A stretch of DNA of 46,420 bases from a virus. How positions within the stretch are numbered: position 1 is the stretch's first letter; each line of letters begins with the position of its first letter. Under the pieces are notes generated by a model that did not search any database, was not told where the DNA came from, and saw only the letters and a program-made list of their open reading frames with translations. The stretch is from positions 1 to 46,420 of IMG/VR virus record IMGVR_UViG_3300031227_000089; one strand, 5' to 3'. Positions 26,001 through 46,420 of this stretch are shown here, piece by piece. The translations under genes and the position numbers were made by a program.

Positions 26001-29000
26001 CTTCCCAGCAGCAATTACCCAACCAGATGTACCACCAATATAGCCTGTATCAGCAACAATGACGCCTTTCAAATAAACGCTATCAGACCATAACCCCCAA
26101 ACATCGGTTGCGCTCAATCCTGTGTCTGCGTCTGTTATTCCTTTTAACCATCCCAATCTTGCATGGTTAGTGAAATCTAATACACCAGTACCAGTTCTTT
26201 TGATGATATCTATAAATGGACCATAGGCTGAATAACTGTCCAGCATAATATATCCAGTCTTAACAGCAGCACCACCTCTGCCCTTAGAAACAACTGCTGT
26301 TCCTTTTTGCCAAGCAGGATTTGTATCTGCTGCATAATCTCCAGCAATATCTCTTGTTACAACATAAGTTGGGGCACCACTATCATCGGTAACAAGCATA
26401 GATTCATCGTCTACACCATCTTTCATTTGGATTACTTCATCATCGAAAAAGGTAGTATCTCCAGTAATTGTTACTGTAGAGACATCTGCAGCTGTCATAG
26501 CTGTATCAAGAACATCAGAACTTGAGACAAGAAGGGGTCCGTTTATGCACGAGATAACTTCTTTCTGGAAAACAACAGTTGATAAAACACCTCTTATGTG
26601 GGCATTTAAAAACTCTGCCTTACCATCATTATCTATACGCCATCCTTTTTCTCCGGAAACGAATGCTGTTGAGCCAATCGAGCTGGCAGCTAAAACACAT
26701 CCACCAATCGTACCAGATGTAGCTGTCAATACGCCTGCTTTTGTAACCCTGAAAGGTGAATCTGCATAAACCGCGTCCCCGATGGCAAGACGATATGTTG
26801 CATCTGCTGCATCTAAAGAAACTACGTCATCCCCAGTTCCAAGAATTATCTTTTGGTTTCCAGCATCTAACAATAAATTAGTAGCAGTTAGTGTCGTAGC
26901 TCCTAATGTAAATCCACCAATTGTTCCAGATGTAGAAGTTATACTTCCAGTGATAGTTGCGCTTGTTGCTACCAAAGCTCCAGCAGCCGAAACAGTAAAA
27001 ACATTATTCCCGAAGCCAATTCCATCAGTGCCGAGATGAACACCTGCGTTTGCGTCATCATATGCGGTTTTAGAGCCTGTGTATAAATGACTCGCATTCA
27101 GAGTAAATCCACCTATAACCCCACCCGTGCAAGTTAGATTACCAGATCCATCTAATTCTGTATTCGCACCTTTCCACTGAAGCTTGGTTCCATCAAATTG
27201 GAAAAACGCATTTGAACCGTCTCCAATATATGCACGTGGGGTCCCTGCATTGTACTCAAGTTGGATACCAGTACTTCCAAAAGTTGGGTTGTTGATAGAT
27301 ATTGATTTATTATCTGCGTCTAAAACAATATATGCATGATTTGCAAGAGTTGTTTGGCTTACGACCCAACCAGCTATCATACTCTGTGTATCTGACAGTT
27401 CGAATAGTACATTTGATCCACCAGAGTCGTATCCCTTAATTCCATATACTCCTGCAGATAAATATCCAAGTTCTAACCTCTTAGCTGTATCCTCATAAAT
27501 AATAATACCTTCATTAGCAGATGCCAAAACTATACCATCACTTGGCGCACTTGATGGTGTCCCGCTTTGTAGACTATAGAGATATCCCCCAGCAACAGCC
27601 CATCCACCAATATCTCCAGACGTAGCTGTAATAGCCCCTGTTATGCTTGCTGATGTCGCAACTAAAACTCCGGCTTCTGAGACTCTGAATGGTGCAGACC
27701 CAAAAACAGTTGCACCTGACCAGAATCCAACACCGACCTTCATTTGAACTCGGGTTGCATCTGCGCCAGCATACAATCCTTCTACTGCACTAATTGTGAA
27801 TCCACCAATGATTCCTGCTTCAGCAGTCAAGACTCCAGCATTAGTGACGTTGAAAGGAGCATCTCCAATCGCAGTTGCACCTGCCCAAAAGCCAGCACCC
27901 GACTTCATCTGCACACGAGTCGCATCAGCTCCGGAATAAAAACCATCTGTGCCATCGATAGTAAAACCTGCAATCACCCCACCAGCAAATTTTACAGTTC
28001 CGTCCTTAAGCACATATGCATTTGCATTAGCCACAGCTGAATTGAAATCTGCTTGATCACATCCCCACCAGGTATCTCCATCCGTAGCTACATGAAAACT
28101 ATCTGCAGTTACGAGATCAGGAATGTGTATCTCTCCGGCAATAAGTGTGCCACGAACAGTTACATCGTTAAATTCAGCATAGCCATCATTCACCCCACGA
28201 AATCCAATAAACCATCCAGAAGTATCTGCTACATAGTTTTCTGATTGGATTGTGTCAAAGATATCAGCTTCCTTGACATAATATGGATTGTCGTTAACAG
28301 ATGCGGATTCGGCACTGGCATTTCCAGCGGTGTCGTAGGATTTTAGCCAGTAGTAATATGTAACCGTATACGCAACGTCGCGATCAACAAAGCTTAGAGT
28401 CTCTCCAGGCTTACCTGGTACAACATAGTTAGCGTCTCCTCCTGGGAAAACATCAGCTTCGGCTCTCCAGATTCCTGTATATTGAAAGTCTGCAACTTCT
28501 GGATTTGTCCACTCAATCCTAACTCCTGCTATAACTGGATTGGCCGTAATGGCTGATGACACGTCAGGAGCGGTAGTTTTGCCAACGATGGTATGTTGCT
28601 CCTCTGCGCTCCATTGAGTAACACCTCCATCCCGAAGATTAAAGCGTGCACGAAGTGTATACTCCACACCTTCTTCAACATCTAAAATTGATATCTCTTC
28701 GGTACCACGCCAATGAATCCCCTTAATTTTCCATGACTCATCAGTATCATATATCTTCCAATTAATTTCGAGAGAGCTAATCTGACTTATGTATCCACCA
28801 ACAGATTGTAATGTAATAACCATCTTTGGGCGAAGTGATCCATCTGTGTCTCTATACATAACAGATTCATCGGATCTAATATTATAAATTACGGGAATGC
28901 CGGATCGACCTACATCACTATAAGGCAATGTGATGTTGCTATCATGTTCGCCAATAACGCCTGATGCTGCAGTATACACAGCTGGAGAATAATCCACACA

Positions 29001-31862
29001 GGTAAGCTTTGCAGTAAGATCGTCTCCAGGCTCTATAGATAGGATTAAAAGCTCAACCGACTCCGAATCCGTTTCACCAAAGAGACCGAGATCACCAGCT
29101 ACAGGTGCATCTGCGATTAAAATTGGTGTAGTAAAAACTAACGTAGTTTGCTCACCTGCGTTGAGAACAACAGGAGCTAAAAGCGTTGCTCCGTCAGACA
29201 GTCTAAATCGAATAGCATAAGTTTTACCAAGCACCATCGTCATGATTGAGTCCATAACAACGGCTGTAGCATCTGTTCCATCATCCGTTACCGATTTAAC
29301 TCGTCCTGTAGCTATGCCCCATAACGGAACGTCATGCGTGACACGAATCAAATCTCCTCTTGTCGATACGAGGTTTTCAACATCAGCGTAAAAGAAGTAT
29401 TTTTCAGGCCTGAGCGTGAGAACAGCTAAATGATATCTTGCAAGAGCATATGCTTGGTCTGGATCAGTAACACCAGGTAGTTCAAGTTGCTCATATAATG
29501 TGGCAGCTAAGTCACCACCACCAGCCTCAGCCGCGTACCCATCTGCAAAAACCACACGTTCATCAACTTCCCAATTAGTTAATCGATTAGCAAAGATTAT
29601 GCGCAGAGCGTGTGGTATTCTTGGATAGGAAATGCTACCAGAAAAGCTCCATGAGTTTCGTGGTGTAAAATGCTGAATTGGTGTAGTCTGTGCCTGATCA
29701 ATAACCACACTGTACTTGCCATCAATATAAGTCGGTGCAGCTTTGCCAGCAGCAGCAATTTGCTGTAAAACATCACTTACGGATGACTGGTAATCTATAA
29801 GGCTGTTAAACTCCAAACCGATAGTGGTGATTAGCTCAGACCCATCAAAAGCTTCAACTGCGTATGTTGCTGTAATTATTACTTTATCTACTGTTGAAGC
29901 TGCATCAACTGAATATCTACCATCGTAGGCTGCAGAACCAGAGATATAAATCGTATTATTTGTCTCAAATGGCTGCCCAGTACATGGTATTCCAACTTTT
30001 CCTCCAATCTCCTCAACCGCTGAATCTATATCTACAGAAGCCGTATTCTTCTTACAAAATGCATGCCATTCTATCAGCTTAGTTAGATCAATCTTCGCAT
30101 CAGCAACAGCTCGTTTATTAGCTGGGTGCTGGAGAACATATCTATAAAGTGACGCTGGATTAGACGTTGCTCGCTTAACCCAGGCCACTGCAGTCACGTC
30201 CCAATCCAAACAAATAGATGTTCCAATGCAGTTAAAAGTATCAATTACATTATTCAACTGATCCGAAGCCTTAATACGCATAGCAACTAAAGCTACGTCA
30301 TCAGCCGTAACGGGAAGTTCTTTGGTAATTGATCTTAGGATACTCCAATAAAGATCATCATAAACATGGTCATCAACACTATCAGCTGTAACACGCTTGA
30401 TACGAACATCATATTGACCATTGGGAACTGAGAAACTATGCGCCTTACGCACAGTTTCATTTGATTGTCCTTGTATCTCTGGCTGGTAGCTAAAAGTTCC
30501 TTCTGCTACTGTAACATAGGTAGACTGTGGAGCTTCCTCTGTAACTTTAAGATCTGTTGCTGGATTATCTAAAACAAGACGCGCGTCATCTGCACGTTCA
30601 TCTGTAATTTGTGCATTAGCAATAACCGCATTACCATCGCATAAACCATCTACAATTGTACATAAGGGAATAGAAATCTTCGCAAGAGAGCAGCAATTAC
30701 TGGGTACCTGGGGAGGAGTTGGATCAGACAGCCTACCCAGCGTAGAATCACAATATCCTTGTCCGCCCCAGATAACAGATCTTATTTTAGTCGTAAGATT
30801 AATAATTACTCTACAAATCCGGTCTACATTAGGAGGTGTTACAAAAGGTCCTTTGGTACCTTCAGTCACGAGAGTATTTTCATATGTGCCTACCCAGCTA
30901 TCGCCAGAGTCTTTTACTCTGTACTCAATCGCGTATGTTACTGATCTACGCGTACGATTACCATTACTGTCAAAAACACATAATCCCTTTGGACATACAA
31001 GGTCAACTACTATCTCATCAGTATCCGCCTGTGTAGTTCGTTGGGTCCATCCACTTGCTTCTAAAAGCTCGATATTAACAGCCAATTCATTAACTGTAGA
31101 TGTGTATAATGTTATATCCTCATCAAGATCAACGTCATCGAAGCACCTAACTTCTGTCTGAACGCCATCAAAGTCTTCAAGATCAGTTTCCCCAACCTTA
31201 AACTCAGATAGGGTCATGGGCATATAGCCAGGCACAAAAAGAAGGCGAAGAAATTGATCATTACCAGAAATCTCAGTATAGGGTCTGGCAGCATAAAAAG
31301 GCACCATTCTATGCCTGCCAAGAAGCACAGGAATAGGTCCATACGGATTAGCCTGGTTTCTGGCATTTGTAATCGAATTGACTACACCCTCTAAATTAAC
31401 TCCTGCACGTTCAGTTAGACGGGATTGAGCCGGTGGGCATAACGCATTGATTAGAAGACTTCCAGCCATGCTTACTGCTGAAGCGACTGCGGCCGCCCAT
31501 ATTGGCCCAAGAGCCTTGAGACTTGTCCCGTATGTATAGATGCTTGCAACTATTACAGCAATGGACATGAGTATGCGAAGAGGCATCTTACCATCGTCAC
31601 CACCGCCCATAGGTAAAACACGGATACTTATATATGCACCTTCTGGCGGATAATAACAAGGCCAAATCTCTGGCTGTACTGGTGTACCATCAACCTGTAC
31701 CACCATGATATGATTTTCTGGAAGCTCCTTGACGGAATCAATGACTTCCTGCAGAGACATTCCAAACGGAACAGTACGACTTATCTTCTCCATCAAGAAT
31801 GGGTGAGGACATACAGTTAATATGTGCGGATCGTATACCACTGGAAGCAGGTTATTTTGCAT
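23007..31862 (-). CDS. Giant tail tip (gpJ-like) and fibre fusion
   Basis: About 2951 residues. The N-terminal third resembles the gpJ/TipJ baseplate hub, with a hydrophobic stretch near 120-170. A fibronectin-III-like part lies near 1090-1200. Next come repeats of a GGFTI/VQMK pattern with V[LA]TATSGTIGG linkers (about 1250-1900), then a LamG/concanavalin-like domain from ~2085 interrupted by two inserts with a GDxxxG/SGATA/GDA pattern. Then come tandem NIGIGYxSLYxNTTGYN-type repeats like trimeric-autotransporter heads (~2670-2845). It ends at ITVDQADISEEFIKFIG-type C-terminal residues. It should recognise the host and is the last tail gene. I chose ATG 31862, after GAGG; a start at 31916 would overlap the NlpC gene further. 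Confidence 0.85.
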   Translation of the reverse strand: MQNNLLPVVYDPHILTVCPHPFLMEKISRTVPFGMSLQEVIDSVKELPENHIMVVQVDGTPVQPEIWPCYYPPEGAYISIRVLPMGGGDDGKMPLRILMSIAVIVASIYTYGTSLKALGPIWAAAVASAVSMAGSLLINALCPPAQSRLTERAGVNLEGVVNSITNARNQANPYGPIPVLLGRHRMVPFYAARPYTEISGNDQFLRLLFVPGYMPMTLSEFKVGETDLEDFDGVQTEVRCFDDVDLDEDITLYTSTVNELAVNIELLEASGWTQRTTQADTDEIVVDLVCPKGLCVFDSNGNRTRRSVTYAIEYRVKDSGDSWVGTYENTLVTEGTKGPFVTPPNVDRICRVIINLTTKIRSVIWGGQGYCDSTLGRLSDPTPPQVPSNCCSLAKISIPLCTIVDGLCDGNAVIANAQITDERADDARLVLDNPATDLKVTEEAPQSTYVTVAEGTFSYQPEIQGQSNETVRKAHSFSVPNGQYDVRIKRVTADSVDDHVYDDLYWSILRSITKELPVTADDVALVAMRIKASDQLNNVIDTFNCIGTSICLDWDVTAVAWVKRATSNPASLYRYVLQHPANKRAVADAKIDLTKLIEWHAFCKKNTASVDIDSAVEEIGGKVGIPCTGQPFETNNTIYISGSAAYDGRYSVDAASTVDKVIITATYAVEAFDGSELITTIGLEFNSLIDYQSSVSDVLQQIAAAGKAAPTYIDGKYSVVIDQAQTTPIQHFTPRNSWSFSGSISYPRIPHALRIIFANRLTNWEVDERVVFADGYAAEAGGGDLAATLYEQLELPGVTDPDQAYALARYHLAVLTLRPEKYFFYADVENLVSTRGDLIRVTHDVPLWGIATGRVKSVTDDGTDATAVVMDSIMTMVLGKTYAIRFRLSDGATLLAPVVLNAGEQTTLVFTTPILIADAPVAGDLGLFGETDSESVELLILSIEPGDDLTAKLTCVDYSPAVYTAASGVIGEHDSNITLPYSDVGRSGIPVIYNIRSDESVMYRDTDGSLRPKMVITLQSVGGYISQISSLEINWKIYDTDESWKIKGIHWRGTEEISILDVEEGVEYTLRARFNLRDGGVTQWSAEEQHTIVGKTTAPDVSSAITANPVIAGVRIEWTNPEVADFQYTGIWRAEADVFPGGDANYVVPGKPGETLSFVDRDVAYTVTYYYWLKSYDTAGNASAESASVNDNPYYVKEADIFDTIQSENYVADTSGWFIGFRGVNDGYAEFNDVTVRGTLIAGEIHIPDLVTADSFHVATDGDTWWGCDQADFNSAVANANAYVLKDGTVKFAGGVIAGFTIDGTDGFYSGADATRVQMKSGAGFWAGATAIGDAPFNVTNAGVLTAEAGIIGGFTISAVEGLYAGADATRVQMKVGVGFWSGATVFGSAPFRVSEAGVLVATSASITGAITATSGDIGGWAVAGGYLYSLQSGTPSSAPSDGIVLASANEGIIIYEDTAKRLELGYLSAGVYGIKGYDSGGSNVLFELSDTQSMIAGWVVSQTTLANHAYIVLDADNKSISINNPTFGSTGIQLEYNAGTPRAYIGDGSNAFFQFDGTKLQWKGANTELDGSGNLTCTGGVIGGFTLNASHLYTGSKTAYDDANAGVHLGTDGIGFGNNVFTVSAAGALVATSATITGSITSTSGTIGGFTLGATTLTATNLLLDAGNQKIILGTGDDVVSLDAADATYRLAIGDAVYADSPFRVTKAGVLTATSGTIGGCVLAASSIGSTAFVSGEKGWRIDNDGKAEFLNAHIRGVLSTVVFQKEVISCINGPLLVSSSDVLDTAMTAADVSTVTITGDTTFFDDEVIQMKDGVDDESMLVTDDSGAPTYVVTRDIAGDYAADTNPAWQKGTAVVSKGRGGAAVKTGYIMLDSYSAYGPFIDIIKRTGTGVLDFTNHARLGWLKGITDADTGLSATDVWGLWSDSVYLKGVIVADTGYIGGTSGWVIAAGKITSTGIGVATATGDATYAFWAGHDTPASAEFSVSHAGALVATSATITGEINASSGSIAGPLIMGNAGSIYTTGKATYASTTAGFFLGYDSGYQFNIGDANSYLKWSGAELLIKGDIDVASIYTPVWDYFLKGAWGFNDGVGSQVLDASGHENHGTLSGTYEWKLLEGVHGSGMLFDYNALALVIDDTSLNTNSLSFSAWYLPYAHCWLAYTDGDAEPDVGDTITGAESGATATFVRATVTTGAWVDGDAAGIMYFKQQTGTFCTTIPANPEVLNNTTKAENSFSAIITNSYGGALVHKQTTRTDRFWRSILDKAGRIYFQGYKTIYSFIDGGPGTIAVGDVVEDETTGISGTIKVIDKTGGAWGDGDASGTLEVHSADGAFTNTNKLKETSPAEVADICTLSSAATYVQLFSINSDTCDLPSRAQHIVCTYNYDTKLACLYVDAILIDSDTSDEADIGGSTDKSIRLIDNIYGAVDEIRYFDKELTENEVRSLYTNPAQNGTGVISANLMRTGKLISSDANTYFDLTEKHIVMNAKTSYNSATAGVFLGYDTDAYKFGIGTDANYLWWDGTKIQWKGANSELDASGNLICTGATLGGFTLNATSLIMGATSALYTTGKTTYADTDAGFWLGYDTDAYKFNIGDAHSYFKWDGATLTLNVKANIGTGDGIIYKDGKRWLYDFNPAYNGTVQPNGLNNFFGIESGNLTIGSTATLVVEGSYNLGVGYRALYSLTKGSFNIGLGYESLYDNTTGYNNIGIGYQPLYNNTTGYDNICIGITSLTSNTSGYNNICIGTLSLIGNTDGYNNFAIGYSALYLNNGGTYNIGIGSYSLYSNTESHNNIALGHNAGQLITGEHNIVIGYKAGDNITSGSDNLIIGYDINADSATADDQLNIGGVIKGNLSTGDIGIPTAVPLAKLHIDQSATDGAKPVITVDQADISEEFIKFIGSAASGVLTQSIVDEGDQGSATLAGWLKIYVEDVGNQVIDGAYHIPFYTLSA

Positions 31863-32250
31863 ATCTATAAAAACCTCGAATACGTTTATCCCACATGGGA
31901 GTATTATAACGCTCAAGACATGTATTTACTTTAGCAAGTACGTGGATCATTAACCCAGGCTTTACAACCATGCCAATGTGTATAGGTAATCCACGTAGTC
32001 GAAGAATCACAGCATCATACGGCCGTTCCATGCCTCTTTCGATCAGTAGCCATTCAGGTATATGTGCGTTAACTACATCCGACACCTTGTCATAGAAACG
32101 GGCATCAACATACTCATTAGTATAAGATGAAAGTTGTATGCCCCGCATCTCCCGATAAATCAAGCGTAGTAAACCCCAGCAGTCAAGACCTGAATAGTCT
32201 CTACCACATGACTTAAATGGGATGCCTATATACTTTTTGATGTCCATCAT
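31852..32250 (-). CDS. NlpC/P60-type tail peptidase
   Basis: 132 residues. DCWGL gives the catalytic Cys24, and PIHIGMVV supplies the histidine; the fold is NlpC/P60, as in phage tail-tip assembly proteins (lambda gpK C-terminal type). It probably trims or crosses the peptidoglycan during DNA entry. No ribosome site precedes the ATG at 32250: the dyad element begins two bases before it. Either translation is leaderless or the start is downstream. Confidence 0.85.
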   Translation of the reverse strand: MMDIKKYIGIPFKSCGRDYSGLDCWGLLRLIYREMRGIQLSSYTNEYVDARFYDKVSDVVNAHIPEWLLIERGMERPYDAVILRLRGLPIHIGMVVKPGLMIHVLAKVNTCLERYNTPMWDKRIRGFYRYAK

Positions 32251-36924: not shown

Positions 36925-37449
36925 TTATGAGCCACCGTCAGCAGCATCTTTACTACCGATGTAATAAAGAATATCGCTGGCGTCCGGAAAAGCTCGGAAT
37001 TCAGATTGAATAATCCTTTGGGTTGATCCATCAAACATAATTTCTGGATTTCCTGTCGGTGCAGCATTTGGGAAACGAAGCCAATTTTCTTCATCTGCGG
37101 ATTCTGATCCATCAATATACTTCTTGAGGAGCAGACTGTTTGCATAATCAGTCAGCTTCGTACCAACAACACTATCACCGAGAATGCCCTCAACGCCAGC
37201 CAAATCCAGCACGCTTTTATGTAGAGCAATCGCATAATTCGCCAAAGAGTAATCAGCCATAGGAATCGTGATTACAGCGCCATGACCAGTAATTACCTGA
37301 TCTTCCGGCTCTGTTCCGTATTGATCCGATAAAAGATCTGCAACGGCCTGACTGAATACAACTTTAACCCCACCTTGGGTTTTTCCAAGATCTACCTCGG
37401 AATCTTCGGTTCCAAACCATACACCACAGGGGCCTAAATCTAATGCCAT
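36925..37449 (-). CDS. Major tail tube protein
   Basis: 174 residues, beta-rich, with TQGGVKVVFSQAVADLLSDQYGTEPEDQVITGH and a helix near ANYAIALHKS, like siphovirus tail-tube subunits. Position before the chaperones agrees. AAAGGAGG precedes the ATG, and the dyad element at 37478 lies 28 bases upstream, suggesting independent high expression. Confidence 0.85.
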   Translation of the reverse strand: MALDLGPCGVWFGTEDSEVDLGKTQGGVKVVFSQAVADLLSDQYGTEPEDQVITGHGAVITIPMADYSLANYAIALHKSVLDLAGVEGILGDSVVGTKLTDYANSLLLKKYIDGSESADEENWLRFPNAAPTGNPEIMFDGSTQRIIQSEFRAFPDASDILYYIGSKDAADGGS

Positions 37450-37477: not shown

Positions 37478-37501
37478 GTAGTTTTACCGCGTTAAAGTTA
37501 C
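37478..37501 (-). promoter_or_regulatory. 24-bp dyad element, copy 8
   Basis: On the minus strand: left arm GTAACTTTAA, core CGCG, right half GTAAAACTAC. Its bases 2-4 are the TAA stop of the radical SAM gene. It marks the border between the glycan cassette and the tail genes and lies just before the major tail protein. Confidence 0.85.
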
Positions 37502-38847
37502 GAGCTTATACCCGTCCAATCAAACAACGAGTTATACTTCCGCCGCTTATGCCAAGAGTAGATAAGATCATAGAATCTATTTCTTGGCATAGATATTAAA
37601 AACCGGGCAAAAAAGCGCAGGAAGGGAAAATCGCATATAAGACCAAAGAGACGCTGGAGATTTTCAAATCTACGTTTTTGACCATCATTAATATTTAAGA
37701 CTGACTTTTCAAAAAAGGTAGATGGTATGCTGGATAAATTACCATCAAAAAGTCCCTGCTCAACAGCAGCAACGCCTAAAGCTGTTTTTGGATACGGCTG
37801 GAAAAGTGAGGACCATCCAATCTTTGGCTTACATGCCATGTTTAGATCAAGAGTTTCAAGTGCTTCATCAACAGTCTCATTTGGCAAAGCCAGCATATTT
37901 TCGGTTCTAAACGAAATGCCTTTTTTATGCAATAGATGTGCTGCATCATATATCGTCCTGTTTGAGATTTTACGATGTAAAACGCCTTTTCGTATCTTTT
38001 CGTTTCCAGACTCGATGGCGAATGTAACACTTGTGCATCCAGCTGCTTTAAGGGCATCAACCCTTCCTTCAGTAAGGAAATCAATTCTAAGTTGTGCATG
38101 AAACGGAATTGCTACTTGTCGCATCCATTTTTCGCTAAATTCGTGGAGACGCTTTTCTCGACCAATGAACTCATCGTCCACGAAGAAGATGTATTTCGTC
38201 TCAGGGTAATCCCCTACCAATTTAAGAGCCTCCTCGACAACACTATCAATGCTTCGATAACGGAGTGATTTGCCAGAGAACATCTTTTTAATAACTGAGT
38301 TGTAGCAGTATGGACATGAAAAAGGACATCCCCTACTCGTCATAATGTTTTTAATTGGATTATTCCTATTCGTCTGGAATTGGTAAATCAAGCCCCTATC
38401 CGGAAAGGGTAAAAGGTCCAGGTCCTGGGGATTCTGGCGTAGCCTTACGGTGCTCTTCAGCGGTATCCCGCCATTCAAAATCCGGGTAAAAACATTCGAT
38501 ACAAACAAATCAAACTCGCCTTGGCAAATGATATCTACAAAAGGCTCGTTTACAAAGTCTCGGAAGAATGTTGCATGTGGCCCACCAAAGATGCTTATTG
38601 GATGCATAAAATGTTCTGCAAGGCCACTTCTAATACTTCGGTTGAGCTCTGCAAACTTTTTATGTCTTCCTGTGTAAATGCTATATGCTAAGATATCTGG
38701 ACAAGCCTCAACCACAGGATCTATTGATGTGATATCAACAGTCCTCAGCAAAGATACCTCGTGCCCATCTTTTTTCAAAGCTGCACTGAGATAAGCAATG
38801 CCTATTGGATCAATAACATAAGGTTCTGTGATGAATAAAACTTTCAT
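37498..38847 (-). CDS. B12-binding radical SAM protein
   Basis: 449 residues. The N-terminal ~130 residues look like a cobalamin-binding Rossmann domain (VLFITEPYVIDPIGIAYLSA, ISIFGGPHATFF). RGCPFSCPYC (C174, C178, C181) binds the 4Fe-4S cluster of radical SAM enzymes. FVDDEF and IESGNEK fit the radical SAM barrel. Such proteins methylate or rearrange unactivated carbons, often in antibiotic or sugar biosynthesis. It is the last gene of the glycan cassette and overlaps the methyltransferase by four bases. The substrate is unknown. Confidence 0.85.
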   Translation of the reverse strand: MKVLFITEPYVIDPIGIAYLSAALKKDGHEVSLLRTVDITSIDPVVEACPDILAYSIYTGRHKKFAELNRSIRSGLAEHFMHPISIFGGPHATFFRDFVNEPFVDIICQGEFDLFVSNVFTRILNGGIPLKSTVRLRQNPQDLDLLPFPDRGLIYQFQTNRNNPIKNIMTSRGCPFSCPYCYNSVIKKMFSGKSLRYRSIDSVVEEALKLVGDYPETKYIFFVDDEFIGREKRLHEFSEKWMRQVAIPFHAQLRIDFLTEGRVDALKAAGCTSVTFAIESGNEKIRKGVLHRKISNRTIYDAAHLLHKKGISFRTENMLALPNETVDEALETLDLNMACKPKIGWSSLFQPYPKTALGVAAVEQGLFDGNLSSIPSTFFEKSVLNINDGQKRRFENLQRLFGLICDFPFLRFFARFLISMPRNRFYDLIYSWHKRRKYNSLFDWTGISS

Positions 38848-39344
38848 ATCATATCCGCCAAAACACGTTTATTCTTACATACAAAAGCCAAACCGCCAAT
38901 AAGATTCTTTTCCTCAACAGGGCCAAAAAATTCATGTACAACACGTTGTATTTCCGGGTAAGATGCGTGTCCATAGTCATGAAAACAAAAGACTCCATTT
39001 AGTTTTAACTTATCCCACCAAGCTAAAATATTTCCTTTTGTTGTATCATAATCGTGTGTAGTATCTTCAAGAATAAAGTCTACAGATTCAGGATCGAATA
39101 GTCCACTTGCCTTCTGAGCAGACATCGTATAATAAGTCACTGGATAGCCAACAATACTTTCTGCTAATTCAAAACGAAGATGTTTATCGACAGTATGCAC
39201 ATGTTCCGCCACTTCCGCAAGACATATCGTAGATCTACCTTTAAAGCTACCCAACTCAACGCATACGTTCCCGATAGTACGTTTTTGTATCTCTACGCCT
39301 TCTTGTTCTGAGAAATAACCTGCAACATCACGCCATTTTTTCAT
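38844..39344 (-). CDS. Class I SAM-dependent methyltransferase
   Basis: 166 residues. VCVELGSFKGRST is the SAM-binding loop; VDFILEDTTHDYDTTKGNI and NGVFCFHDYG match the Methyltransf_24 / CmcI-like group, often O-methyltransferases on sugars or small molecules. In this cassette it probably methylates a sugar or glycan end. It overlaps both neighbours by four bases. Confidence 0.8.
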   Translation of the reverse strand: MKKWRDVAGYFSEQEGVEIQKRTIGNVCVELGSFKGRSTICLAEVAEHVHTVDKHLRFELAESIVGYPVTYYTMSAQKASGLFDPESVDFILEDTTHDYDTTKGNILAWWDKLKLNGVFCFHDYGHASYPEIQRVVHEFFGPVEEKNLIGGLAFVCKNKRVLADMI

Positions 39345-40396
39345 AACTCAAGTCTCATCCACTTGCACAACATCTCACCATTTTTGAAAGATCTTGTGCG
39401 AAGATCATCGACCATAGTAGAATCCGCAATCGCGATTCTTGGATCTTCTCGAACTTCATCAATTATTTCTTTCAGCTCAGGTAACGTGATGTCCATGGGC
39501 AGAATATGCTTAAGTCCAAGCTCGTCAGCCATAAGCATCGTTTTTGGCTCTCGAACAAAAGGAATACATGGCACACCGATAAGTGCACAGAAAAGCATCA
39601 TATGCATTCTCATTACGATAACAAAATCGCATCCAGCAAGAATCTTCAAAAGATCGGAGTAATTGATGTATTCATCGTAAAGGATGCCATCGCACACTTC
39701 AGCGAGCTCTTTTAAAAGGAAGTAGTCAAATCCTTCCTCTTTTCGAGTCTCGCCGCATATACAAGCAAGATCCGAATAAAAAGACTCTTCAAGCAGCAGT
39801 TGTTTGATAACATCAAAGTATTCATATTTATCTGGTAAATTCTCATGGACCAAATTAATGCCCATGGTGCTTGATGGACTATGGACTTCATATCCACGTT
39901 CAATGGCGAAGGCTCCGTCTGCACATACCCACAGCTTGTCGGGATTCAATCCCCACTTAATTGCGAGGTCTCGATCATTGTCTGATCGCAAGGTTATCAT
40001 GTCGAGACTACCGAAATGCGTGACTAACTGCTGTTTCTGTTCTGCTGAAGGAGTTAACGATGTTCCTGCGGCAAGCATACAAATAGGCTTTTTCAGCTTT
40101 TGAGCCCTGATGATTAAATTAGAACAATGATCAATAGACCATCCAGATAAAAGCGAGGCTCCGCCAAGAACAATATGTGTGGCCCATTGGAATGCTTTGT
40201 CCACACCAAGACTAAAATCAAAGACCTGATCTAAGTCAGCATTCTTCTTAGTAAATTCTGGATTAAATGTCAAGGCTCCGTATTGTGTATCTTCGCGTAA
40301 TTGCATCTTCGCAGAAAACAAAAGGCCACTTAGAATTGCGTCATCTCCTATATTTCCTGCACCGTAACCAGCACCGCAAAAAAGTACTTTATTCAT
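39341..40396 (-). CDS. Polysaccharide pyruvyl transferase (CsaB/PssM-like)
   Basis: 351 residues. The N-terminal GAGYGAGNIGDDAILSG is the hallmark of the family, and the C-terminal VIVMRMHMMLFCALIGVPCIPF is the conserved RxH helix. These enzymes put a pyruvyl ketal on sugars of secondary cell-wall polymers, exopolysaccharide or lipopolysaccharide, using PEP. Phage-borne copies are uncommon. It lies between methyltransferase and FrhB-like genes, overlapping the latter's stop. Confidence 0.85.
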   Translation of the reverse strand: MNKVLFCGAGYGAGNIGDDAILSGLLFSAKMQLREDTQYGALTFNPEFTKKNADLDQVFDFSLGVDKAFQWATHIVLGGASLLSGWSIDHCSNLIIRAQKLKKPICMLAAGTSLTPSAEQKQQLVTHFGSLDMITLRSDNDRDLAIKWGLNPDKLWVCADGAFAIERGYEVHSPSSTMGINLVHENLPDKYEYFDVIKQLLLEESFYSDLACICGETRKEEGFDYFLLKELAEVCDGILYDEYINYSDLLKILAGCDFVIVMRMHMMLFCALIGVPCIPFVREPKTMLMADELGLKHILPMDITLPELKEIIDEVREDPRIAIADSTMVDDLRTRSFKNGEMLCKWMRLEL

Positions 40397-41253
40397 CAGT
40401 TCCTCCTTTTGTTTTCTAATTTACGAGCAATTTGGCTAAATTGTGATCTCTGAATATATGACTCGTCGCATTCATCTAAAATCAAAATACCTTCTTGAAT
40501 AAGATTTTTAATACAGGATGTGCCTAAAGACGTATGAGCCAAAACAATAGAATGCCCCTCTTGCTCACCACGATATTCTTCTAACCAAGCATCGCAGCAA
40601 GCGACATCGGCCTGTTCCGCTGCAAAATCAGAACATACTTTACATGCATCTGGCATGTATTCAAAGCCGTCCCACAGTTTTTGTATCGGTGAATCCGACC
40701 ATAAAAACTCTTTAACATCTCCATCAAGCATTTCCACCTGGTAGTAAAATGGAAACCATCCACGAGCCCTGTATGTAACTTTTCTAACGCTTTGGATATT
40801 AACTCCAGATTGCTCAAGAGCCAAGATAGTGGCTTTTGCGTACATATTACGCCCACACATAATTCCAAAACAGACCACGATCTTATTTCGTAACTCCTCA
40901 TCTGTTTGTAGCCTCTGTTTAAGAGCTGAAATTTGACATGGAAGTCCTACAACAGCAATCCGCTCGGCCGTCAAATCATCTTTAGCATGACATAAACCAC
41001 GATTAATCTCTGTTACACAATAGATAGACTTTGCACTTAATAGAAGATCCGCTTCAGTTTTTGCAAAAATGCTTTTACCATGTGGTGGAAAATCAAGATC
41101 AACTACATTTACCACAGCACCATCAATAGCATCAGATCGCAACAGGGCTAATAATGCTCCAGTGACAATGCCACCAGATGACGAATTAAGCCTTATGGCC
41201 TGGTCAGCTGTGTGGCCTATCCAAACTTTATCAACTGTGCCTATGCCATCCAT
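40396..41253 (-). CDS. FrhB/FdhB-like flavoprotein
   Basis: 285 residues. SSSGGIVTGALLALL, AKSIYCVTEI, VVGLPCQISAL and CFGIMCG, and then DACKVCSDFAAEQADVACCDAW with its clustered cysteines match the coenzyme F420 hydrogenase beta-subunit family (FrhB_FdhB), which uses FAD and Fe-S. Members occur next to pyruvyl transferases in bacterial polysaccharide clusters, though their reaction there is not established. It lacks the usual N-terminal ferredoxin part. It sits between the glycosyltransferase and the pyruvyl transferase. Confidence 0.8.
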   Translation of the reverse strand: MDGIGTVDKVWIGHTADQAIRLNSSSGGIVTGALLALLRSDAIDGAVVNVVDLDFPPHGKSIFAKTEADLLLSAKSIYCVTEINRGLCHAKDDLTAERIAVVGLPCQISALKQRLQTDEELRNKIVVCFGIMCGRNMYAKATILALEQSGVNIQSVRKVTYRARGWFPFYYQVEMLDGDVKEFLWSDSPIQKLWDGFEYMPDACKVCSDFAAEQADVACCDAWLEEYRGEQEGHSIVLAHTSLGTSCIKNLIQEGILILDECDESYIQRSQFSQIARKLENKRRN

Positions 41254-41256
41254 AAA

Positions 41257-44200
41257 TCACCAATCCATTGAGATAAGATGTTCGCCTTTCCAATCATCGG
41301 CAAAAGCGCCCTTAGCAGCATCAAATTTAAAAAAGTCATAGACACTAACCTTTCCAACTGTGTTTTTCATCCGCAGCCAGCCCTCATAGAGGCCATCATA
41401 TCCATAATAACTTTCCTTAAACTTTATTTGATTTGAATGAACGTAGCCATAATGGTGATAACCTAAATGTGCAACTTCATTTCCCTGGAAAGGATTTACT
41501 TGAAGTAATGACTGTCCTATTGTATTTACCAGTACTGGAGGCTCATGCGACTTCCAAGTATATCCTGGTTTGTATCTCCATGGCCTTGGAAAACTGTCAC
41601 TCCCCCATCCTGATTTATTATGCACAACATGCTTAGTCTTGCTCATAAAAGCGATGTGAGGAATAATAGCTACAGTCTTTTTTGGATTAGCAACGAACAT
41701 ATTATACAATTCTATCATAGAAGGAATTGGGTAAAACTCGTCAGCATCAATTTCCCACAAAACGCATTCATAGTCAATATGCAAAAGTGGTGTATTCACC
41801 ATCGCTAACTTGGAGGGCCAAATATCATTGCTTCTATAAACTGTAACATTTGATAAAGGTGTAAGTTTATCCAGGTATTCCCTGGTTCCATCAGTACTCA
41901 AATACCCCTCACGATTCTCGGGAAGATGTCCTCCACGGGCTTCATGTCCTTTAGCTCCGCTGTCACCAGCAATTTGGGCCAATCCCTCAACGATATACCA
42001 ATGCCATAGAAAAGGCAACTGCTTAAAGCGTTCAAGATGATATTCAATAAAAGGCATTCCATCAAGTACTATGGTAAAAAAAGCTACAGGTAATTGGGTA
42101 TCCTGCTCATACCAATCAGGTTCAATCTTAGGCACAAGAAGCTTAGCTCGACTTGGGTCACATTTAAGATCCCAGAGTTTCACATGTCGTTTGTGCCTAC
42201 CGATTTTTAAACCGTCCATAAGATTCATAACACAGCTGTTTATGCAATGAAATTCCCTTGCGGATTCAAGAATACCAATCCAGTCGAAAAGACAATGACC
42301 ATTAATCGGTTGGACATCTACAGTATTCGGAAAATTAAAAACACAGCTTCCTGCAGATTCTCCTTTTGAATGTGTAACAACGTATCCACTTGACAAGCCT
42401 AACTTTTTCTTCAAAGCCTCTTCTTTGTCGTGATGACGTGTAATTTGCAAATTGTATTTTTCATTAAAAGGAACACCAGCCTCTTCGTACTTCCATTGAT
42501 CAAAAGTCAACTCAGATTTTAACCAGTCATCCTCATTTCGACCAAAGCCAATACCTAAGTTGATAACTCGGCCAACCTTGTCTTTTAGCATATCTACAGA
42601 CTTTGCATAGCTCTTTCCAATATCCACACCCACACCAACAGGCTGGACATAATTAATATGTTCGAACAGGGGTAGATATTTATCGCATACTGGCCAAATA
42701 ACCTCGTAACCTTTATCTGCATACCACTTAGCAATCGGCAAAACAATTATAATATCTCCGATTCTTCCCGGTTGTACAATCCCAATCTTATTCCGTACTA
42801 AAGTCCATCTTTGGTACCATTGCTTCCAAGGAAATTGAGATCGTAATTGTGTAGATATACCAATAGAATCGAGAGTAGCCCCATTATATCGTCCATCATT
42901 ATGTTTACCAGTCCATCCTGGCGGATGTACAACGTGCCAAATCTCTCCGTACCTTACATCTATACTATCTTTACCAAACTCACGCCACATCCAATGGGCC
43001 AATCCATCGTCCCAATTACACGCTCCGATAACAAGTTCTGGATAGTCAGATGCAACTTTCTTAAAAGTAGTAGCGGACCAAATGAAACAATCCTTGCCTG
43101 ACCAATACGACATAGTACTCTTTGTACTGTTTGTACAATCATGCACATCCAGTCTATGATGAAGAGCTACTTGATAACCGTATCCAGGCAACAGAGACTG
43201 TACATCCACATTCGAGGGTAAAATTATATCTGAATTAACATATCCATAAAAGTCTTTGTCGGGATAAATCTCCAATAACCTGTTATATAAATCTTTGGTA
43301 ATAGGCTTTGTTTTGTCGCTTAGTCCTCGGACCTTTGCGTTATCAGGAGTAAAAAAAGAATCATATCCATCAGGAACCTTTGTTCCTTCATCTGTTACAG
43401 CAAGAATAAGAACATCTTTTGGCCACGATGTAACCGCGTTATCTATCCGTGAACTTCCACTGTAGTAAGGCATTACAACTTTTAAATTCTTCTTCCCCTT
43501 ATGTGGAATTAAAAGAACTTTGTTTATGAATGGAGGTAGAGGAGTTCTCGAAATAGTATCTATTTTAAATGAGTGCAAAAAGATCCTTTTTAAAACATCA
43601 TCCACAGTAATAGCATCCATACACAAGGACTTATTACAATTATGCCAAAGTACAGATTGATAACACGGAGCACATGACACAAACTTTCGTACAACTTGAT
43701 ATGAGGAAACTAATGGATGCGCTTTTGTCACAGGTGTAGGTCCCACAAGAAGGATAATCGGCACACCGAGGGAGTCGGCAACATGCATCAACCCCGTATC
43801 TACTGAAACTATAAGGTCGCATTGACTAATCACCTTACTTGTTTCGAAGATATCAAGTTTATCTACAAAGTTTACACCCTCACAACCTCTGAGTTCCTCG
43901 CCCTGACCCACAAGAATAACTTCGTATCCAAGAGTAGTTAATGCCCGTGATAACTCTGGAAAACGACTCCATCCAGTTTTACTTCCTTTTCTTGACCCGA
44001 CCCGAACAGATGAATTTGCCAATGCAATCTTTGGCCTACTTGAACTAAGTATTGGCCTATTGGCTGTCACGGGAAGAAATCCAGAAAAATCAGAGTTAAC
44101 AGCATCAATCATATTCAAATAAACCTGTACTTCGTGCATTCCAGCGTATGATGAATGATTAATCCACCAAACTGGACCTCGATGAGCATCCTTTGCCTCA

Positions 44201-44454
44201 ACCATACATTCTGGACAAGACCAATCACCTACGTAAATTCGATCAAAAGCATTCTTTTTATATGTTGTATAGATACCATCAAATAATTTCTCTGCCATAC
44301 CTTTTACCGCTGGAAATTTATGTAAAATATCTTTATCCGTTATCAAGTAAATTTTATCCTTACTTCTCTTCCGCAGTATTTTTAATGCTGCAGTCATAAG
44401 GATGAAATTTCCCAGGCAGTTAGAAAAGCCTATTGCTACTTGATTAGCTGACAT
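41257..44454 (-). CDS. Multi-domain glycosyltransferase (two GT9-like and two GT-A-like parts)
   Basis: About 1065 residues. Part 1 (~5-300) is GT9/heptosyltransferase-like: NCLGNFILMTAALK and IVSVDTGLMHVADSLGVP near 220. Part 2 (~320-545) has a GT-A feel, with YVNSDI as a possible metal motif near 410. Part 3 (~555-780) again starts GT9-like, GRIGDIIIVLPIAKWY. Part 4 (~790-1065) is GT2/GT92-like: PVAFFTIVLDGMPFIEYHLE and WEIDADEF near 903. It could assemble a short glycan alone. I chose ATG 44454 for its GGAGGG. Whether all parts are active is unknown. Confidence 0.75.
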   Translation of the reverse strand: MSANQVAIGFSNCLGNFILMTAALKILRKRSKDKIYLITDKDILHKFPAVKGMAEKLFDGIYTTYKKNAFDRIYVGDWSCPECMVEAKDAHRGPVWWINHSSYAGMHEVQVYLNMIDAVNSDFSGFLPVTANRPILSSSRPKIALANSSVRVGSRKGSKTGWSRFPELSRALTTLGYEVILVGQGEELRGCEGVNFVDKLDIFETSKVISQCDLIVSVDTGLMHVADSLGVPIILLVGPTPVTKAHPLVSSYQVVRKFVSCAPCYQSVLWHNCNKSLCMDAITVDDVLKRIFLHSFKIDTISRTPLPPFINKVLLIPHKGKKNLKVVMPYYSGSSRIDNAVTSWPKDVLILAVTDEGTKVPDGYDSFFTPDNAKVRGLSDKTKPITKDLYNRLLEIYPDKDFYGYVNSDIILPSNVDVQSLLPGYGYQVALHHRLDVHDCTNSTKSTMSYWSGKDCFIWSATTFKKVASDYPELVIGACNWDDGLAHWMWREFGKDSIDVRYGEIWHVVHPPGWTGKHNDGRYNGATLDSIGISTQLRSQFPWKQWYQRWTLVRNKIGIVQPGRIGDIIIVLPIAKWYADKGYEVIWPVCDKYLPLFEHINYVQPVGVGVDIGKSYAKSVDMLKDKVGRVINLGIGFGRNEDDWLKSELTFDQWKYEEAGVPFNEKYNLQITRHHDKEEALKKKLGLSSGYVVTHSKGESAGSCVFNFPNTVDVQPINGHCLFDWIGILESAREFHCINSCVMNLMDGLKIGRHKRHVKLWDLKCDPSRAKLLVPKIEPDWYEQDTQLPVAFFTIVLDGMPFIEYHLERFKQLPFLWHWYIVEGLAQIAGDSGAKGHEARGGHLPENREGYLSTDGTREYLDKLTPLSNVTVYRSNDIWPSKLAMVNTPLLHIDYECVLWEIDADEFYPIPSMIELYNMFVANPKKTVAIIPHIAFMSKTKHVVHNKSGWGSDSFPRPWRYKPGYTWKSHEPPVLVNTIGQSLLQVNPFQGNEVAHLGYHHYGYVHSNQIKFKESYYGYDGLYEGWLRMKNTVGKVSVYDFFKFDAAKGAFADDWKGEHLISMDW

Positions 44455-44981
44455 AAGTCCCTCCAAAAGAATGCAGAATCATCTACATGAAAATGACGAT
44501 TAAAACCCCAGTAACTTACGTCAGGAGGCAAACTTCGATTGACCCAAATTGATGGAATACCATATTCGCATGCAAAATTTATGAAACTAAAAAGTTTTTC
44601 AACAGTATCAGCACAACAGACTACGATACATTTAGCATAATGTATAACGCTTATATCTAATTCATCAAACCACCGACAATCAAAACCATACAAAGATCCT
44701 TTAGCAAAAAGGCCGTTGTAGTCTTTTCCCATCCAAAGAATCAATGGATCTGTCGGTGCCCTATCTGCAACTATCGGTGCCCTATCTGCAACTGTTGAAG
44801 AATTCAAAGGTACAACAGATTGCTCAACATAAATAGTATGGGGAGATGGCAAATATGCATGTCTGTCAATCTGCTGTTGCATTGAAACTGGAACACGTAT
44901 CGCTTTGCGCCTAAGTGCCCTACGATTTAAAGGGCTTGTTTGAAGTCTTGATTTTGAAAGAAATGCAGTTGGAAAAGCCAT
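44436..44981 (-). CDS. Unrecognised first protein of the glycan cassette
   Basis: 181 residues. The N-terminus is very basic (SRLQTSPLNRRALRRKAIR). A middle region contains VADRAPI-VADRAPT, encoded by a 21-bp tandem duplication, and the C-terminal half looks like a small Rossmann-type fold (KCIVVCCADTVEKL, YGIPSIWVN). No family recognised. It overlaps the glycosyltransferase start by 19 bases and lies directly after the dyad element at 44991. Confidence 0.6.
   Translation of the reverse strand: MAFPTAFLSKSRLQTSPLNRRALRRKAIRVPVSMQQQIDRHAYLPSPHTIYVEQSVVPLNSSTVADRAPIVADRAPTDPLILWMGKDYNGLFAKGSLYGFDCRWFDELDISVIHYAKCIVVCCADTVEKLFSFINFACEYGIPSIWVNRSLPPDVSYWGFNRHFHVDDSAFFWRDLCQLIK
44753..44794 (-). 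repeat. 21-bp tandem duplication inside a gene
   Basis: Units 44753-44773 and 44774-44794 differ only in the last base and encode the repeated seven residues VADRAP(I/T). The near identity points to a recent slippage event. Confidence 0.9.
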
Positions 44982-44990
44982 ACCAGCCTC

Positions 44991-45014
44991 GTAATTTTAG
45001 CGCGTTAAAGTTAC
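44991..45014 (-). promoter_or_regulatory. 24-bp dyad element, copy 9
   Basis: On the minus strand: left arm GTAACTTTAA, core CGCG, right half CTAAAATTAC. It stands nine bases before the start of the glycan cassette, whose GAGG ribosome site follows it at once. The 64 bases between it and the 45079 stop hold only short inverted repeats (for example GACTGA/TCAGTC, 45062-45080). Confidence 0.85.
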
Positions 45015-45078: not shown

Positions 45079-45759
45079 TCATATCCCAACCATCTTAAGT
45101 TGAATTGTTATAATCTCATCTTCACCATCAAAATCTATTTTGTAAAAAGATTGGTTTGAAAAACTACCTGGAATAGTTGCACCGGCTGAAGTATTAGAAC
45201 ACAAAATCGTTGTTGAATTGATTGTGGCTAAATTGGTTCCAGTGGTTATTATAAATGATCCAACATATAAATCTACTTCGGACATATCTGTGGTCGATTC
45301 CCATTCAAGCTCTAACGGTTTGTAATACCGTTCTCTCGGCATTATTTGTTGCAACTTTTCAACTTTAAATTCAACCTTGATAATACCATTTTCTGCCCTG
45401 CTTGGATCATCAACGTCAGGATGGTTGAGAGGAACAAACTTAAACCTCTTGCCTTCAGTAAGAGAATCATTCAAAAATCGTTCAAGATCAAGTATGTCAT
45501 TTCCATTAATGATGAAATTCCCCATCTCAGAAACCTTAGCTCCATCAATATAGACTGTTGCGGAACATCGCCTTTGATGGTTGTTCTTAAGTCTGAGTTT
45601 GTACTCTGTGTTAAATGGGATAGCTACTTGACCGTTAAACTCACGAACAGGATTGTTATCCTTGAGAACGGTTAAGGTGAAATCCTGCTGGGTAGCCGCA
45701 TGAGCAATCCCGCACGAAACCCATAATAAAGCAATGATTATAAATATTAGTCTTTTCAT
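45079..45759 (-). CDS. Secreted beta-rich protein
   Basis: 226 residues. The start MKRLIFIIIALLWVSCGIAH is a Sec signal with an AHA-A cleavage site. The mature protein is beta-rich, with VLKDNNPVREFNGQVAIPF and KLRLKNNHQRRCSATVYIDG, like jelly-roll proteins of unknown role that I have seen in phage and environmental genomes. It lies between the glycan cassette and another secreted protein. Export of a late phage protein suggests a surface or periplasmic function. Confidence 0.65.
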   Translation of the reverse strand: MKRLIFIIIALLWVSCGIAHAATQQDFTLTVLKDNNPVREFNGQVAIPFNTEYKLRLKNNHQRRCSATVYIDGAKVSEMGNFIINGNDILDLERFLNDSLTEGKRFKFVPLNHPDVDDPSRAENGIIKVEFKVEKLQQIMPRERYYKPLELEWESTTDMSEVDLYVGSFIITTGTNLATINSTTILCSNTSAGATIPGSFSNQSFYKIDFDGEDEIITIQLKMVGI

Positions 45760-45760
45760 T

Positions 45761-46189
45761 TTACTCCCCCGTCAAATCAAACGCATCATTGGCAGCCGCA
45801 GTCGAAGCAGCAGCCTTAGCGGCAATATAGTCGTTCTCCGCCGTCTTACGTGCTACAGTTTCTACCCATCCAAGGTACTGGTCTATGATGGGCTCTTTGA
45901 TCATCTTCTTAATGAAGCAGTTCTTAACAGACAATAATCCCTGTGTCCATGTCTCTTCAGCGGCCTGGCAAGCCTCCTGAGTCTCATACTGGATGTCAGA
46001 GCAAGCGTATATGCCAGAGCCGCAATCATTTGTATTCATGTATCGGGAAGTCACCATAGTGGCGAGTTTTGGTACGTAAGCATCAGGAATCACGATACTG
46101 ATAACCATATCCGCTGCATTAGCCCAAAACACACAAGTCCCGAATGCAAACACAAAACACATAATTGATGCGATTAAATATTTCTTCAT
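45761..46189 (-). CDS. Secreted cysteine-containing protein
   Basis: 142 residues with a Sec signal peptide ending ANA-A. The mature part has four or five cysteines (DCGSG, YACSD, EACQA, KNCFI) that may form disulfides outside the cytoplasm, and an alanine-rich tail. No family recognised. It ends one base before the start of the 45079 gene. Confidence 0.65.
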   Translation of the reverse strand: MKKYLIASIMCFVFAFGTCVFWANAADMVISIVIPDAYVPKLATMVTSRYMNTNDCGSGIYACSDIQYETQEACQAAEETWTQGLLSVKNCFIKKMIKEPIIDQYLGWVETVARKTAENDYIAAKAAASTAAANDAFDLTGE

Positions 46190-46212: not shown

Positions 46213-46420
46213 TTATTCACTCAAATCCATCTGTTTCAGCATTGCCAGCACTGTCTTATAGAGCTTCTTCAGCGCTGTTTTCTGTGCCGCTGACAGATTG
46301 CCAAACGTGTTATCAACATAATTATCGACCTGTGCATACGACAACGCAGCTATATCAGCAAGCTGTGTCTTAGCCGTGGATCGTTCTGTGGCTACTGCCT
46401 CGACCTCTGCGGTGACTGTG
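46213..46420 (-). CDS. Partial protein running off the right end
   Basis: The C-terminal 68 residues of a helical, lysine-rich protein (for example QVDNYVDNTFGNL and KKLYKTVLAMLKQMD) with its start beyond the window. No family recognised. The frame stays open to the edge, which shows that the leftward operon continues upstream. Confidence 0.6.
   Translation of the reverse strand, partial: TVTAEVEAVATERSTAKTQLADIAALSYAQVDNYVDNTFGNLSAAQKTALKKLYKTVLAMLKQMDLSE

Follow-up and report, generated by a model that had tools for sequence, protein, structure and literature searches.

A modular glycan-gene cassette at a fixed site in a phage tail module, with a predicted role in virion glycosylation

The IMG/VR virus record IMGVR_UViG_3300031227_000089, which was analysed in full as a window of 46,420 bp and is probably a fragment of a virus genome, carries a block of six leftward genes for glycan chemistry directly upstream of the gene for its major tail protein (MTP; Table 1). 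On balance, we favour the view that this cassette is a modular virion-glycosylation island acting on the tail tube and/or the capsid, with pyruvylation among its predicted chemistries. The features seen directly are the gene content, coupling, position and modularity of the block, the empty sites in relatives, the recurrence of its central enzyme beside a capsid gene in another phage lineage, and the absence of clear membrane segments from its products.

The junctions between successive cassette genes measure -31, +3, -1, -4 and -4 nt in order, and all six genes are therefore packed or translationally coupled. The initial annotation had described six coupled leftward genes lying between two copies of a dyad element, and both its coordinates and its gene content hold; pyruvyl and methyl transfer, which it had proposed, is likewise the chemistry predicted here. 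None of the six proteins has a clear transmembrane segment (the top KD19 value, 1.95 at residue 260 of the polysaccharide pyruvyl transferase (PPT), is taken as a buried strand), and the window cassette therefore lacks a flippase, a polymerase and a lipid-linked priming transferase. Nor was there a Pfam match in the cassette to the gtr-type families (membrane flippase, bactoprenol glucosyltransferase and membrane glucosyltransferase).

Table 1. Cassette genes, flanking elements and neighbouring features of the window
Feature	Coordinates	Strand	Remarks
FxSKS-motif protein, 181 aa	44436-44981	-	First cassette gene; no Pfam match
Multi-glycosyltransferase fusion, 1069 aa	41257-44466	-	Pfam GT9, 7e-16
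FrhB-like flavin/Fe-S oxidoreductase	40396-41253	-	Pfam FrhB N, 7e-12; FrhB C, 7e-31
PPT, CsaB-like	39341-40396	-	Pfam PS_pyruv_trans, 3e-20
S-adenosylmethionine (SAM) methyltransferase	38844-39344	-	Pfam Methyltransf_24, 8e-12
B12-binding radical SAM enzyme	37498-38847	-	CxxxCxxC; Pfam B12-binding, 1.5e-11; radical SAM, 4e-20
Right dyad	44991-45014	-	9 nt 5' of the first cassette ATG, GAGG between
Left dyad	37478-37501	-	28 nt upstream of the MTP start; contains the radical SAM stop codon (37498-37500)
MTP, immunoglobulin (Ig)-type	36925-37449	-	Downstream of cassette; candidate acceptor
226-aa protein	45079-45759	-	Upstream of cassette; signal-peptide-like N-terminus
142-aa protein	45761-46189	-	Signal-peptide-like N-terminus; without family match
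Giant fibre	23007-31916

Relatives were found by alignment-based scans with the MTP, the GT9 glycosyltransferase and a capsid protein, and the interval between the tail-terminator and MTP genes was then read; single-sequence IMG/VR scans with the FrhB-like protein and with the MTP gave no relatives. A glycan block occupies this interval in seven relatives (L016, G001, L033, L038, L039, L040 and L045), where it starts directly after the tail-terminator gene in every case and ends directly before the MTP gene wherever the contig reaches it. The window agrees with them on the MTP side. All seven blocks open with a homologue of the first window gene, which encodes what we call the FxSKS protein, followed by a GT9 glycosyltransferase. 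Every complete cassette contains a methyltransferase, and the remainder varies among methyltransferases, pyruvyl transferases, acyltransferases, a nitroreductase and FrhB. Thus, L016 encodes an FxSKS protein of 142 residues, a GT9-GT2 protein of 563 and a methyltransferase of 208, L045 an FxSKS protein of 146, a glycosyltransferase of 566 and a methyltransferase of 213, and G001 an FxSKS protein of 126, a GT9 protein of 293 and a methyltransferase fusion of 536. In L038, an FxSKS protein (130 residues), a glycosyltransferase (568) and a methyltransferase (210) are joined by a Methyltransf_24 protein (202). L039 has an FxSKS protein (134), a 1072-residue fusion 62% identical to that of the window, FrhB (284; 55%), PPT (372; 57%) and a methyltransferase (157), and L040 has an FxSKS protein (151), a glycosyltransferase (558), a 239-residue protein, PPT, a nitroreductase, a GT2 protein, a methyltransferase, a 391-residue protein and two hexapeptide acyltransferases. 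In L033, the tail terminator, a dyad, an FxSKS protein (206) and a GT9 protein (76% identical) precede the contig end.

The same site is empty, with the tail-terminator gene abutting the MTP gene, in L018, L046, L047, L049, L051 and L052 and in most distant kin; L048 also lacks the cassette, and its tail-terminator call is not clear. In L042, the tail terminator and a dyad are followed by two unrelated open reading frames (ORFs) of 165 and at least 221 residues (L042:6077-7280), which have no Pfam match and may be alternative cargo. The comparison therefore points to a fixed insertion point at which the first two genes are conserved and those that follow can be exchanged. On an MTP tree, the support of which is weak, the presence of the cassette requires about four changes, suggesting patchy gain and loss.

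The earlier statement that the block has no counterpart in ordinary siphovirus tail modules stands as far as ordinary phages are concerned; in close relatives, however, this site does hold a counterpart. Similarly, its description as a complete moron is apt in that the block is insertable between genes that are adjacent in relatives, but not in the sense of a unit with its own promoter and terminator; no terminator-like or sigma-70 promoter-like excess was found, and the cassette is headed by the dyad that the phage uses throughout its genome. A misassembled host island is unlikely, because seven separately assembled relatives show analogous junctions to phage genes. Assignment of a host from two metagenome-assembled genome loci, in Lentisphaeria and 'Bathyarchaeota' bins, was rejected; the related viral contigs concerned, L038 and L039, fall in bins of two domains, which are therefore likely binning artefacts.

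The central enzyme of the cassette is a fusion of four domains: D1, of the GT9 family (residues 1-300) and similar to lipopolysaccharide (LPS) heptosyltransferases; D2 (~320-560), with an NSD motif; D3 (~560-765), which belongs to a phage sugar-cluster family with the motif QPGRIGD...LPIAKWY; and D4 (~790-1060), which is GT2-like and corresponds to a GT2 match in the homologue L067 (7e-10). D2 and D3 appear glycosyltransferase-like by association and motif only; D3 was not recognisable as GT9 in profile-profile comparison, and PDB profile searches with D2, D3 and D4 returned nothing credible. The fused D2-D3-D4 trio recurs in L063-L068, and in L063, L064, L066 and L067, which represent an unrelated phage lineage, it shares 36-39% identity with the window fusion over ~500-790 residues and follows the major capsid gene (phrog_10), from which a single small ORF separates it. 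The trio of L067 is followed by FkbM-type and other methyltransferases and a GT4 gene, while L063 has a B12 radical SAM domain fused between D3 and D4. The latter forms a single 1354-residue chain after the capsid gene (L063:4188-8252), combining a zinc ribbon, glycosyltransferase-like domains and B12 radical SAM. In other phages (L069-L090), D3 and D4 homologues are separate, often neighbouring genes. A virion target is best argued from the fact that one and the same fusion adjoins the tail tube gene in one lineage and the capsid gene in another.

The window MTP ends in ...DAADGGS, and all seven cassette-linked MTPs have a short C-terminal extension with Gly-Ser or Gly-Thr as the last residues, whereas the extension is absent from five of six close empty-site relatives (L046, L048, L049, L051 and L052). 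This distribution suggests that the C-terminal Ser/Thr tail of the MTP may be the acceptor site. In mycobacteriophages, according to a passage of PMC12619734 that cites Freeman 2023, capsid and tail-tube subunits are reported to bear glycans at their C-termini.

The FxSKS family (126-206 residues) carries an N-terminal F-x-S-[KR]-S motif in every member found, followed by a linker of variable length. In the window protein the motif reads FLSKS, the linker is modelled with low confidence, and residues 78-181 form a receiver/flavodoxin-like domain with predicted local distance difference test (pLDDT) values mostly of 75-89. Its best PDB alignments, to CheY-like folds, reached VIA Z 12.4 with a root-mean-square deviation of 2.6-2.8 over 100-105 residues. 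The phospho-acceptor Asp and acidic pair of receiver domains are not conserved, there being no Asp among the invariant columns of an alignment of eight FxSKS sequences, and searches of GenBank phages with the FxSKS protein gave no match. Because its gene is coupled to the start of the glycosyltransferase gene, we suggest that the protein is probably a docking or acceptor-recognition subunit of that enzyme.

Within the cassette, the FrhB and PPT genes are coupled. PPT scores 73.8 bits against PF04230 (gathering score 25.3) and is nearest to CsaB (1.5e-20), yet its 73.7 bits fall below the CsaB equivalog cut-off of 213.1. The FrhB-like protein, at 88.6 bits, does not reach the equivalog cut-off of 331.5 for a functional F420 hydrogenase beta subunit and is, as judged from its sequence, a family homologue only. 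In 29 genomes sampled from the phylum of G002, a Lentisphaeria-labelled bin, 13 of 25 FrhB matches have a PPT gene within 5 kb; a bacterial polysaccharide locus is therefore the probable source of the pair in the phage. PPT had no match among GenBank phages. None of the titles and abstracts listed in searches of open-access literature reported a polysaccharide pyruvyl transferase encoded by a phage, although such a report may exist, nor did we notice any open-access report of a pyruvyl ketal on a phage virion glycan. FrhB matches in three faecal records labelled 'Bacteriophage sp.' (L035-L037: MT835848, MT835675 and MT837708) were not accepted as phage precedents. With ORFs that look flippase-like and nucleotidyltransferase-like by eye, L035 reads as an exopolysaccharide locus of a bacterium, and L036 and L037 gave no phage gene match; all three look bacterial and are probably mislabelled.

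From these features we infer late expression, the enzyme activities, an acceptor, a glycan structure and a benefit. The cassette and the late tail genes would be expressed together, under dyad-headed operon signals of one kind. In the cytoplasm, the soluble enzymes of the cassette would build a short oligosaccharide, to which the fused glycosyltransferase could contribute up to four transfer steps with host nucleotide sugars as donors; PPT would add a pyruvyl ketal, with FrhB as its flavin partner, and the methyltransferase and B12 radical SAM enzyme would add O- and/or C-methyl groups. Before or during assembly, the glycan would be placed on an abundant structural protein, the likeliest acceptors being the capsid protein and/or the adjacent MTP, in which the C-terminal Ser/Thr tail may be the site of attachment. 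The benefit may be a variable charged coat that provides shielding, less unproductive adsorption, or stability, and that would therefore explain the exchange of modifying genes. A bolder and distinctly tentative version is that of a self-contained, swappable island with its own acceptor code, in which the FxSKS protein docks the glycosyltransferase on the C-terminal Ser/Thr tail of the MTP and exchange of pyruvyl, methyl, acyl and radical SAM genes at one fixed site makes the coat differ from one close relative to the next.

Several points weigh against virion glycosylation as the function. It is predicted from genes, and to argue from a location next to structural genes is guilt by association. 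The empty-site relative L018 keeps an MTP tail (...NNGT), and its 42-kb record, a fragment, shows no glycosyltransferases of the cassette types; moreover, the MTP-tail evidence is phylogenetically dependent. No profile recognised D2 or D3 as a glycosyltransferase, the AlphaFold model of the 1069-residue protein is unusable past D1 (mean pLDDT 41), and the receiver-like fold of the FxSKS protein does not reveal its function. No nucleotide-sugar synthesis genes were seen among the genes scanned, and the two signal-peptide-type proteins encoded upstream in the window could be acceptors instead.

Of the two functions offered by the initial annotation, glycosylation of the virion is better supported than masking of receptors on the host surface. 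Were the latter correct, the cassette would remodel a capsule, LPS or secondary wall polysaccharide during infection, with receptor masking, superinfection exclusion or release from debris as the outcome. FrhB and PPT are often neighbours in bacterial genomes, and PPT and D1 resemble CsaB and LPS heptosyltransferases, respectively, which are enzymes of surface glycans. However, the window cassette has no membrane protein, flippase, polymerase or undecaprenyl-linked transferase, unlike gtr-type conversion modules; its location is between tail genes or, in a second lineage, immediately behind the capsid gene; and expression alongside late genes would come late for exclusion. We therefore regard host-surface modification as rather unlikely. 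It is also improbable that the glycan is intended for another phage product. Candidates would be the giant fibre, the exported proteins encoded at 45079-46189 and the FxSKS protein, which might itself carry or prime the glycan. Two signal-peptide-type proteins are indeed encoded just upstream, and the FxSKS N-terminus is kept in every family member while the linker varies, but the exported proteins have no counterpart in the cassettes of relatives, and coupling to an enzyme and a receiver-like domain are not the profile of a virion protein. Hypermodification of phage DNA is very improbable: phage glycosyltransferases do decorate modified bases (T4; Pyle 2024, as cited in a passage of PMC12619734), but no base-hypermodification enzyme was found among the early genes scanned, where an ordinary N6/N4 DNA methylase is present, and pyruvyl and acyl transferases in a tail module fit poorly.

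The 24-bp dyad (GTAACTTTAACGCGSTAAAAYTAC) lies at 100, 695, 3002, 7442, 13771, 22968, 32252, 37478 and 44991 of the window; GTARYTTTARCGCGSTAAAAYTAC was matched at nine places with up to three mismatches, as compared with none in 100 shuffles, a count that chance does not explain. As had been proposed, the coordinates place the right copy as a leader to the first cassette gene and the last stop codon within the left copy. Dyads with a clear downstream gene are oriented with transcription and end ~2-50 nt short of the start codon that opens a gene group, and they head most gene groups or operons of the window; the relative G001 has the same dyad at five places. The right dyad at the cassette start is present in L033 and not recognisable in L016, G001, L038, L039, L040 or L045, while L016, G001, L039 and L045 have recognisable or diverged counterparts before the MTP gene. 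Those of L039 (L039:17367) and L045 (L045:15213) have similar outer sequence and another core (GTAACTTCAGCCCGCTGAAAAACC and GTAATTTCGTAACGACGAAATTAC). The dyad thus looks like an operator or operon-head signal of a phage regulator, co-evolving with its protein. That the two dyads delimit a mobile cassette as recombination or insertion boundaries hardly survives these findings, even though near-identical copies flank the block and the right dyad follows the tail terminator in L033 and, with other genes behind it, in L042. The flanking copies are two of nine, most of which are at operon heads; one or both are missing from cassettes that occupy this site in relatives, L040 having a dyad at neither end; the differing cores of L039 and L045 are what regulator-operator co-evolution predicts; and no terminator was found. 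L040 and the distribution of the element mostly refute the dyad-bounded interpretation. The initial annotation held that the same genes without flanking elements would count against it, and L039 has four of the six families (FxSKS, glycosyltransferase fusion, FrhB and PPT) plus a methyltransferase, with the right element absent and the left diverged. Directly behind another window dyad, a ParB-like domain is fused to the N6/N4 DNA methylase (13806-15212).

To our knowledge, phage virion glycosylation has been demonstrated only recently and in few phages. It is known in mycobacteriophages (Freeman et al. 2023, via passages of PMC11256854, PMC12619734 and PMC13313380), where phage-encoded glycosyltransferases modify the virion; by inference, a methyltransferase does so as well in Rhodococcus phages. 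In contrast, the virion glycosylation described here is predicted from genes, which form a multi-gene island fixed between tail terminator and MTP and which also include PPT, FrhB, acyltransferases, B12 radical SAM and a four-domain fusion. Multi-enzyme proteins are likewise encoded by the chlorovirus PBCV-1, whose A064R (three domains) and A111/114R (three glycosyltransferase functions) serve an atypical glycan on the major capsid protein (PMC9614988 and PMC7826918); PBCV-1 is a eukaryotic virus, however, and the likeness is one of domain organisation, D1 here being GT9 with a separate FxSKS protein coupled to it. The predicted chemistry resembles that of Mimivirus fibrils, with a 4,6-pyruvyl ketal in polysaccharide 1 and a methylated sugar in polysaccharide 2 (PMC9614988), although there the polysaccharides are on fibrils of a giant amoebal virus and are made by a separate gene set. 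Bacterial CsaB and exopolysaccharide pyruvylation loci share the CsaB-like PPT and its frequent FrhB neighbour, but the cassette sits in a phage tail module and lacks lipid-linked assembly, export and S-layer genes. Cyanophage S-SM2 and other T4-like sugar clusters (within L069-L090) have D3 and D4 homologues amid sugar-nucleotide and transferase genes; there they are separate genes and not beside the tail tube, and PPT and FrhB are unmatched in the loci scanned.

What is new here is a putative variant of virion glycosylation that is position-locked and chemically richer. If the prediction is correct, this pyruvyl-ketal glycan would be the first that we know of on a bacteriophage particle, perhaps accompanied by radical SAM methylation as a further unusual feature of virion chemistry, and the system would be a phage analogue of capsule-locus diversification; it suggests that phages, like bacteria at their capsule loci, may diversify their coats by swapping glycan genes at one fixed position. 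Such phages could therefore be found in bulk from a sequence rule (a glycosyltransferase island that separates the tail terminator from the tail tube or lies just behind the capsid gene), from a new marker family combining FxSKS with a receiver-like domain, and from a testable acceptor site.

The window holds rightward early genes, including DNA polymerase, primase, ligase and the methylase, followed by leftward lysis and tail genes up to the MTP; beyond it lies the cassette, and the contig ends after the two exported-type proteins. The scanned parts of the window contained no head genes, which are therefore probably located past the right end of the contig; there was no tRNA or Rfam match in the window. 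A 342-residue rightward protein between the primase and lysis genes (20068-21096) has no Pfam or PHROG match and resembles, by eye, a glycoside-hydrolase-type barrel. The exported-type proteins, together with a truncated ORF (46213-46420), occupy the place of the tail terminator of relatives. The 226-residue protein gave no relatives as a single-sequence query against IMG/VR; jumbo phages of Xanthomonas and Stenotrophomonas encode distant homologues of it.

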